Of a DNA stretch of 64,000 nucleotides, positions 53,096 to 55,070 are shown piece by piece. Numbering within the stretch: the first letter of the stretch is position 1; each line of letters begins with the position of its first letter. The position numbers were made by a program, and so were the translations under genes. Origin of the DNA: Streptomyces sp. NBC_00443 (GTDB lineage Bacteria > Actinomycetota > Actinomycetes > Streptomycetales > Streptomycetaceae); contig NZ_CP107917.1 of assembly GCF_036014175.1 (NCBI RefSeq), forward strand, positions 4,216,001-4,280,000, written 5' to 3'. The notes under the pieces were generated by a model. The model ran no database searches and was not told the DNA's origin. It was given only the letters and a program-made list of their open reading frames with translations.

Positions 53096-53845
53096 TCAGA
53101 TCCCCCCGTCGACGTTGAGGGTCTCACCGGTGATGTACGCGGCGGCGTCGGAGAGCAGGAACAGCACCGGGCCCGCGAGTTCCTCGACGGTGCCGAGGCG
53201 GGCGAGCGCTGTCTTGCGGGAGTAGGTGGCCCGCAGTCCGTCGGCGCGGTCGGCGGGCATGGTGGCGAAGGCCTCGGTCTCGATGACGCCGGGGGCGACC
53301 ACGTTGACCCTGATGCCCTGCGGGCCGAGTTCCTTGGCGAGTGAGCGGGTCAGCCCGATCATGGCGGCCTTGGCGGCGGTGTAGTGGGCACGCAGCGGGA
53401 TGCCCGCGGCGGCTCCGCGCGAGCCGATGTTGACCACCGAGGAGCCGCCGCCGAGCAGCGGCAGCGCCTGCTGGATGATCCGGTAGGCGGCCGTGAGGTT
53501 GGTGTCGAGGATCCGCGCCCACTCGTCGGCGGGCAGGTCCGCGAACGGGATGTGGCTGATCACGCCCGCGTTGTTGACGATCCCGTCGAGCCGTCCGTAG
53601 CGGTCCTTGGCCTCGCCGACGAGGCGGTCGACCTCGGCGGTGTCGCCGACGTCCGCGCGGATCACGTGGTGGTCGCCGGCCGTCTCCTTCAGCGCGGCGG
53701 TCAGGCTGTCGACGGCCTCGCTCTCCTGCCGGTAGCAGGTGAGGACGTCGGCGCCGGCTTGGGCAGCGGCGAGGACGATGCCCCGCCCGATGCCGCGGCT
53801 GCCGCCGGTGACGAGGAGTTTCCTGCCGTGCAGTGCGAGTTCCAT
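53096..53845 (-). CDS. Stand-alone ketoreductase (SDR)
   Basis: A 249-residue classical SDR of the FabG/aromatic-PKS ketoreductase type. Residues 13-20 hold [12 protein letters not shown] is at ~90, and the catalytic S-Y-K is in VNIGSRG and HYTAAKAAM; TGETLNVDGGI closes the protein. It probably reduces a ketone of the poly-beta-keto chain or a later intermediate with NADPH. It is very like the C-terminal half of the next gene's product, as if one arose from the other. Confidence 0.92.
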   Translation of the reverse strand: MELALHGRKLLVTGGSRGIGRGIVLAAAQAGADVLTCYRQESEAVDSLTAALKETAGDHHVIRADVGDTAEVDRLVGEAKDRYGRLDGIVNNAGVISHIPFADLPADEWARILDTNLTAAYRIIQQALPLLGGGSSVVNIGSRGAAAGIPLRAHYTAAKAAMIGLTRSLAKELGPQGIRVNVVAPGVIETEAFATMPADRADGLRATYSRKTALARLGTVEELAGPVLFLLSDAAAYITGETLNVDGGI

Positions 53846-53873
53846 GGGATTCCCTCCGTGGCTGGGCCGCGGC

Positions 53874-55070
53874 TCAGACGCAGCCGTCGACGTGGATGTT
53901 CTGGCCGGTCACGTAGCCGGCGTGGTCACTGATGAGGAACAGCACGGCCTGGGCGATGTCGTCGACGGTGCCGAGCCGGCCGAGCGCGGTGAAGGAGGCG
54001 AAGGTGCCGCGTTGCCGCTCGGCCTCTTCGGCGGGCAGTTCGTCGAGCGCCTCGGTGGCGATACGGCCGGGCGAGACCGTGTTGACGCGGATGCCGCGCG
54101 GTCCGAGCTCCCGGGCCAGCGAGCGGGTCATGCCGACCAGCGCGGACTTGACGGCGGTGTAGTGGACGCCGCCGGCCATGCCGATGAAGGCGACCGTGGA
54201 GCCGATGTTGACCACCGAGGAGCCGGCGGACAGCAGCGGCAGGGTGCGCTGGGTGACCAGGTGGGTGGCGGTGAGGTTGCCCTGGAGGGTGGCGGCCCAC
54301 TCGGCGGGTCCGAGGTCGGCGTACGGCTGGGGGCGGAAGGTGGCGGCGTTGTTGACGACGGCGTCGAGTCCGCCGAGGCTCGCCTCGCACGCGGCGGCCA
54401 GCCGGTCCACGTCCGCCTCTTCGGCGGCGTCGGCCCGCAGCACCTGGTGCTTGCCGGGAGTGCCGGCCAGTTCCTCCTCCAGAGTGGCGACGACCGGGCC
54501 CGGGGTGCGGTAGCAGGTGACGACGTCGGCCCCGGCCCGGGCCGCGGCAAGGACGATGCCCCGCCCGATGCCGCGGCTGCCGCCGGTCACCAGGACGCGC
54601 GTGCCCTGGAGTTGCCGGCCGGCCCGGGCCGCGGTCTCCACCTTGGCCTTGATCAGCCGCATCTGGACCGCGGTGTTGCGGTTGAGCCTGGCGGTCATCC
54701 CGGCGTCGTCGATCGGGGCGTCGGGCTTCATCTCGAAGTCCTGGATCCAGCGCATCCGTACGCCGCCGGGCACCTCCTCGTACTCCCAGCGGATGTTCAT
54801 GTACGCGAAGGGGCCGGTCTCGACCCGGCGGGCCGCGACGGTGCGGGTGGCCGGGTCGGGGGTGCGCTCGGACACCCAGCTCCAGACCGTGCCGTTCTCG
54901 TCCGGGTGCAGGGCGAGGCGGAAGGTGACGGTGTCGCCGTCCCGGCCGAGGATCTCGGCTGAGGCGTACTCGTTGAACAGCCGCGGCCAGGCGGCCACGT
55001 CGTTGGTCATCGTCCACACCAGGTCCATCGGTGCCTCGACGACGATCGCGTTGTCGGTGTGTCCTGCCAT
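53874..55070 (-). CDS. Fused aromatase/cyclase-ketoreductase
   Basis: A 398-residue didomain protein. Residues 1-~145 are an SRPBCC cyclase closest to WhiE-ORFVI/TcmN-type aromatases ([60 protein letters not shown]). A short linker ([10 protein letters not shown]) joins it to a full SDR ketoreductase ([16 protein letters not shown] at ~162, NNAA in place of NNAG, YTAVK catalytic pair, [11 protein letters not shown] end). The fusion would couple first-ring cyclisation with reduction. ATG overlaps the ACP stop (TGATG). Confidence 0.92.

Follow-up and report, generated by a model that had tools for sequence, protein, structure and literature searches.

The window, i.e., the whole stretch of 64,000 nucleotides of Streptomyces sp. 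NBC_00443 analyzed here, contains on its minus strand an open reading frame (ORF) of 398 amino acids (aa) at positions 53874-55070, whose product joins an aromatase (residues 1 to 152) to an SDR ketoreductase (residues 154 to 398, referred to as KRf). The next gene encodes a second, stand-alone ketoreductase (KRs). Upstream of the didomain gene lie the genes for the acyl carrier protein (ACP), the chain length factor (CLF), the ketosynthase, and cyclases of the cupin and TcmI types, and downstream those for two ABM proteins and a cytochrome P450. The features are as follows.

51165..52574, minus strand: cytochrome P450, RubU position (80% to the hyaluromycin cluster)
52427..52849, minus strand: second ABM-domain protein, RubT/GrhV position (Pfam ABM)
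52768..53127, minus strand: ABM-domain protein, RubH/GrhU position (Pfam ABM)
53096..53845, minus strand: stand-alone ketoreductase KRs, 249 aa, RubG/GrhO10 orthologue by position and identity
53874..54611, minus strand: ketoreductase domain KRf, residues 154-398 plus stop (S-Y-K-N retained; AlphaFold model; best fold match 5thq)
54615..55070, minus strand: aromatase/cyclase domain of the TcmN/WhiE type, residues 1-152 (phmmer to 2kf2, 3tl1, 3tvr, and TcmN; fold match 3tl1, 3tvq)
55070..55375, minus strand: ACP (Pfam PP-binding), sharing one base with the didomain start
55372..56640, minus strand: CLF (KS-beta; 80% to the hyaluromycin cluster)
56637..57908, minus strand: ketosynthase alpha (89% to the hyaluromycin cluster)
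57923..58414, minus strand: cupin-fold cyclase (domain scan and hyaluromycin comparison)
58348..58836, minus strand: polyketide synthesis cyclase, TcmI type (Pfam Cyclase_polyket)
58881..60884, minus strand: BTAD/NB-ARC regulator, RubS position (62% in the hyaluromycin comparison)
L079:3488-4528 (flank): O-methyltransferase
L079:6517-7494 (flank): zinc-binding dehydrogenase (Pfam)

The ORFs and domain matches agreed with the preliminary description of this DNA, which had proposed that a pentangular-type cluster carries a 398-aa aromatase-ketoreductase fusion adjoining a second, related ketoreductase.

The cluster and its known relatives

The window together with the next 20 kb is colinear with the hyaluromycin cluster of S. 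hyaluromycini, from the P450 gene through those of the flavin enzymes, which begin at the window end and continue past it. Between approximately 63.9 and 82.9 kb of the window plus its flank, Pfam identified an O-methyltransferase, a berberine-type oxidase, and four monooxygenases of the FAD_binding_3 type. One of the flavin genes (L079:12088-13779) gave a match of 1069 bits to RubL (7ouj), covering 548 residues; its score against GrhO5 was 726 bits. Homologues of the spiroketal-forming flavin enzymes thus lie beside the polyketide synthase (PKS), as is characteristic of rubromycin-type clusters.

In Table 5 of PMC5765640, the 398-aa "cyclase/reductase" of S. hyaluromycini is equated with GrhT and RubF, and the 249-aa ketoreductase with GrhO10 and RubG. 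The former, Orf1-739 of the hyaluromycin cluster, is flanked by the ACP on one side and the GrhO10-type reductase on the other and shares 77% identity with the window protein; GrhT (griseorhodin) and RubF (rubromycin), known here only as percentages relative to Orf1-739, have the same aromatase-reductase architecture. The window protein is likewise a single ORF with a TcmN-type aromatase followed by an SDR, preceding a GrhO10-type reductase, and sequence divergence was the only difference from these three proteins, the window cluster being known from its genes alone. For its part, KRs is 85% identical to the S. hyaluromycini gene and shares position and clade with GrhO10, RubG, and HyalO10, with no function-relevant difference found. 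Judging from sequence and gene order, the cluster is a complete rubromycin-type one, in which the 398-aa product is orthologous to RubF/GrhT and the next gene to RubG/GrhO10. The fusion architecture is already in print for sister clusters of the rubromycin family, of which 154 rubromycin/griseorhodin sequences were gathered in a 2026 paper, according to its accessible part (PMC13200261).

Whether the didomain is standard in known pentangular clusters, a point raised in the preliminary description, has a divided answer. It holds for the rubromycin family, according to the above-mentioned Table 5, but not for pentangular clusters at large: in the accessible text of the frankiamicin paper, the aromatase/cyclase is a monodomain protein, and in the lanthomicin table (PMC9127795) the cyclase and the reductase of ltm, xan, and arx have an entry each. 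Further clusters, such as L018 and L087, carry a 153-aa ORF between aromatase and reductase, the place that KRf occupies in rubromycin clusters; the same table annotates a 153-aa protein in the corresponding place as a monooxygenase.

Three other features of the window were observed. The asparagine-synthase homologue at the GrhP/RubR position (61146-63015, minus strand) is spread over three reading frames, while its hyaluromycin counterpart is one ORF of 623 aa; this reflects either a sequencing error or a broken gene. In one ORF at 47119-48045 (minus strand), the Pfam matches cover an FAD-binding domain only over its first ∼40 residues and then a nitroreductase. A Methyltransf_19 gene (S-adenosyl methyltransferase; 50302-51561, minus strand) adjoins the P450 gene, and locus L124, described below, has one in the equivalent place.

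Fold, active-site residues, and phylogeny of the two reductases

Pfam recognized Polyketide_cyc and adh_short_C2 in the 398-aa product. When PDB sequences were searched, residues 1 to 152 matched WhiE/TcmN-type aromatases, i.e., 2kf2 (1e-65), 3tl1, and TcmN (2rer/3tvq), and residues 154 to 397 matched SDR reductases, the best being 5thq (3.8e-63). An AlphaFold model of the protein, built with 14 sequences, reached a mean pLDDT of 80.9 and a pTM of 0.64, with weak regions at residues 292 to 302 (low pLDDT) and in part of the C-terminal third. Its fold matched 5thq, 3tl1, and 3tvq with TM-scores, by target, of 0.84, 0.85, and 0.92, respectively. In the model, the last aromatase helix (residues 125 to 151) leads almost directly into the first KRf strand (158 to 161).

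The aromatase half aligned without gaps with the TcmN/WhiE aromatases 2rer, 3tl1, and 2kf2 over residues 1 to 151/155. The partners differ, since 2rer/3tvq is named as a cyclase-O-methyltransferase (TcmN), whose partner domain is unlike KRf, and 2kf2 and 3tl1 are cyclase chains of 159 to 167 residues. The columns that are invariant across 14 didomains include R69, W28, Y35, and R82; R69, present in all 14, is the conserved pocket arginine of TcmN (PMC12664062, in the part accessible).

KRs and KRf share 134 of 245 residues (55% identity over 245 aa; BLASTP). The sequence pattern that the preliminary description had reported in both reductases was indeed common to them, with NNAA in KRf and NNAG in KRs, but its term "near-copy" was an overstatement, 55% identity making KRs a relative. 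NNAA as a functional mark of the fused domain was discarded, only 3 of 29 KRf rows of the alignment carrying it and the other 26 having NNAG.

The nearest solved reductase to both KRf and KRs by sequence is ARX21 (5thq/5tii), the C-17/C-19 ketoreductase of arixanthomycin; for KRs, the match to 5thq had a value of 4.3e-89. ARX21 is also nearest to the KRf model by fold and has the catalytic S, Y, and K in common with it. The residues named in the available text of PMC9215129 were therefore compared in ARX21 numbering, with a 20-residue offset taken from the alignment. In KRf, N118, Y157, and K161 were present in 29 of 29 rows, and position 144 was S in 27 and T in 2. However, the substrate residues were replaced: R154 by G in all 29, and Y210 by F in 28 and V in 1; K213 was F in all 29. 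In KRs, R154, Y157, K161, Y210, and K213 were each present in 29 of 29 rows, with S (25) or A (4) at position 144, and the window KRs has all five of S144, R154, Y157, K161, and Y210 expected of an ARX21-type C17/C19 reductase. Among the other 25 rows, which include ARX21 itself, R154 was found in 22 and Y210 in 22. ARX21 is a separate protein, whereas KRf is fused and lacks R154 and Y210. Pairwise dN/dS values of the window genes versus relatives, which are rough at high G+C, were 0.17 to 0.49 for KRf (8 pairs), 0.17 to 0.29 for KRs (9), and 0.18 to 0.48 for the aromatase (8). Since the catalytic residues are retained and R154 and Y210 are replaced, KRf is probably a functioning SDR reductase with a remodelled substrate pocket.

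For the phylogeny, 113 reductases were reduced to 89 by removing near-identical ones (24 rows), matches below 150 bits being left out except for five kept as the outgroup. For a second tree, near-copies and ten rows that were long or belonged to the outgroup were removed from these 89, which left 54 rows. Neither ketoreductase tree contains ActIII or PdmG. From the aromatase tree, short and near-identical rows were removed, and then 20 of 81 plain aromatases.

In the 89-row tree, KRf formed one clade of 29 rows (25 fused and 4 unfused; support 100/100, starred) on a long stem of 0.73, and KRs another of 29 rows (27 plus 2; 100/98, starred). Both were on one side of a branch with support of 52/87.9 in the 89-row tree and 88/69 in the 54-row tree, neither of them starred, and the alternative grouping of KRs with ARX21-type reductases was not rejected (AU p 0.429). 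KRf and KRs are two old clades, which may be sisters. A recent duplication was discarded on the basis of the 55% identity and the two deep clades. As for the sequence of duplication and then fusion put forward in the preliminary description, the common side of the branch agrees with it, but the support is weak and the rival placement stands; it is possible and, if so, would be an old event.

Distribution of the fusion and clusters with only one half

The search for the didomain elsewhere that had been suggested was productive in all four sets, which overlap; in each of them, the window's own strain or its close kin are or may be present. Of 295 genus genomes, 10 had KRf-type fusions. The class set of 394 genomes, which spans 137 genera, yielded 3, all from the same genus as the window; the family set of 394 genomes yielded 11, from three genera; and the named-genome scan yielded 15 among 41 loci, all 15 titled Streptomyces. 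The recurrence of the identical single-ORF layout in other genomes rules out a chance or assembly-made fusion or a local sequencing error. KRs directly followed the fusion in 32 of 32 fused loci scanned, and adjoined KRf in all 36 KRf loci (32 fused, 4 unfused), several of these being one strain seen twice.

An aromatase-reductase fusion of another kind, of 400 aa and 56% identity, was found in one genome (G018; L123, 9418-10620) in a different, more distant type II PKS cluster. It has VSAG in place of NNAG, and no second reductase of the KRf/KRs family was found in the 20 kb covered at the locus. An independent second event seemed likely in the first tree, but a single clade of KRf plus this fusion was not rejected (AU p 0.55).

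The two halves were also found apart, in both directions. On the one hand, in two clusters (L124 and L125 plus flanks, in genomes G263 and G530) the aromatase ends in a stop codon and KRs begins 31 and 20 bases later, respectively. No KRf was found at these two loci, though homologues of all five flavin enzymes occur there at 67 to 76%. L124 also has a third SDR (12867-13628). The gene order of both agrees with that given for the heliquinomycin cluster in the accessible text of PMC7232196 (five core genes, reductase, P450, extra methyltransferase, second SDR, P450, transporter, and sugar genes), a likeness of order and not of sequence. In G263, Pfam identified Methyltransf_19, a 2,3-dehydratase, an epimerase, an EryCIII-like glycosyltransferase, and a nucleotidyltransferase, and in G530, where a single gene was scanned, an EryCIII-like glycosyltransferase. 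The aromatase of these heliquinomycin-like clusters grouped with five didomain aromatases (100/95, starred), and their KRs was located beside the same five (99/92, starred); in the KRf tree, those five didomains sat with L112 and L013 (100/87 and 99/85, both starred). KRs without the L124 and L125 copies as one clade was not rejected (p 0.386). KRf was likely lost in L124 and L125, a later gain of KRf by recombination in the five didomain clusters being a possible alternative.

On the other hand, a single sister genus contributed four genomes (G737, G747, G761, and G773; L119 to L122) with an unfused KRf located beside KRs. This KRf measures 267 to 269 aa in the two copies picked out, and no N-terminal aromatase remnant was seen in it by eye. 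These are tailoring-type loci, with P450s, a zinc-binding dehydrogenase homologue, MFS, MarR, a berberine-type oxidase, KRf, and KRs, whose tailoring genes are homologous to rubromycin ones. No ketosynthase, CLF, or aromatase was found in 20 kb at each of the four loci, nor in a further 20 to 40 kb for G737, G747, and G761. A search for the source of their polyketide gave no result; three of the four genomes have another pentangular-type PKS elsewhere (79 to 80% in KS-alpha), and the only ketosynthase of G761 at the cutoff (64%) is on another contig.

The unfused KRf was the first branch inside the KRf clade in the 89-row tree, which would fit both a fusion after the split and a later fission. 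A clade of all fused copies without these unfused ones was rejected (AU p 0.011), and the fusion may have arisen once or more than once.

The separation of the halves bears on the proposal that the fusion coordinates first-ring closure with reduction by channelling the ACP-bound chain from aromatase to reductase. In its favor, 32 of the 36 KRf loci scanned have the fused form, and the modelled stretch between the aromatase helix and the reductase strand is short. Nevertheless, two clusters that are otherwise complete have an aromatase and no KRf, four genomes have a KRf that no aromatase accompanies, and ARX21, the nearest solved relative, recognized only the polyphenol scaffold in vitro, as stated in the portion of a review at hand (PMC5321127). 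Coordination of this kind is accordingly not supported, and channelling appears quite improbable.

The sister-genus KRs (L119 7853-8602, L120, L121, and L122) carries S144A and N118H in all four copies and yet is more constrained, with dN/dS of 0.07 to 0.14 (three pairs) versus 0.23 to 0.26 for KRf. Together with the neighborhood of KRf and KRs in 36 of 36 loci, this would suit a KRf that is catalytically intact but mainly structural, e.g., by joining KRs in a mixed SDR oligomer. Against such a role, heliquinomycin-like KRs exists without KRf, and we regard it as improbable. KRf could instead be a separate, dispensable module riding on the aromatase, absent from the heliquinomycin-like clusters and able to work where aromatase and PKS are missing, as at the four sister-genus loci. 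Mixed oligomers of KRf and KRs may also form; in the four sister-genus species, KRs would be a noncatalytic partner in them (S144A, N118H), with KRf providing the active site. This is unlikely as well.

Proposed roles of the enzymes

We favor, with a probability of roughly 0.6, an account in which the window proteins are the RubF/GrhT and RubG/GrhO10 orthologues, KRf reduces a ketone other than that of KRs, and the tie to the aromatase is not an obligate coupling. By analogy with the TcmN/WhiE family, the aromatase half would close and aromatize the first ring or rings of the ACP-bound polyketide chain. In vitro, GrhO10 reduces the C6 ketone of 7,8-dideoxy-6-oxo-griseorhodin C, a late spiroketal ketone, in what the accessible text of PMC9215129 calls a C17 reduction. 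By orthology, KRs would reduce the C17-derived ketone at a late stage, once the spiroketal has formed, whereas KRf would reduce a different ketone of a cyclized intermediate. The earlier suggestion that the two reductases act at different positions is thus probable only, given the difference in pocket residues and the late ketone used by GrhO10, and a division of labor between them seems likely.

A rival view is that KRf and KRs are redundant and either reduces the C17-derived ketone. In 2018, the genome paper allowed "grhO10/rubG or grhT/rubF" (footnote 6 of the pathway legend in PMC5765640), and heliquinomycin-like clusters do without KRf; however, both ARX21 substrate residues are altered in KRf and retained in KRs, and GrhO10 is active by itself, as reported in the accessible text of PMC9215129. 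Redundancy is in our opinion doubtful.

For KRf acting on a different ketone, the best guess for the site would be C-19, because it is the other position named for the ARX21-type family in the available portions of PMC5321127 and PMC9127795. A C-19-type reduction is a guess from papers naming C-17/C-19 reductases and from carbon counting. The early pathway, before collinone, includes "regioselective ketoreduction" in the words of the accessible text of PMC7933358, which names no enzyme for it. The heliquinomycin-like clusters, which manage without KRf, speak against the C-19 guess: since they have the spiroketal-enzyme homologues, either KRs or the third SDR would cover the step there, or KRf would not be essential for the scaffold. 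The fusion itself may be a way of keeping two proteins of one pathway together rather than an obligate catalytic coupling.

The comparison of the two SDR domains asked for in the preliminary description thus returned two separate old clades that may be sisters. No test of KRf function, and no report that it lacks the two substrate residues or that clusters with one half alone exist, was found in the open-access literature in the parts available, outside which are the griseorhodin papers of 2002, 2007, and 2009, which may say more on GrhT.

Rubromycins are well-studied antibiotics and enzyme inhibitors. The clusters that lack KRf and the sister genus that has it alone would offer a natural comparison for finding the job of this domain, and they warn that a protein fusion by itself is no proof of catalytic coupling.
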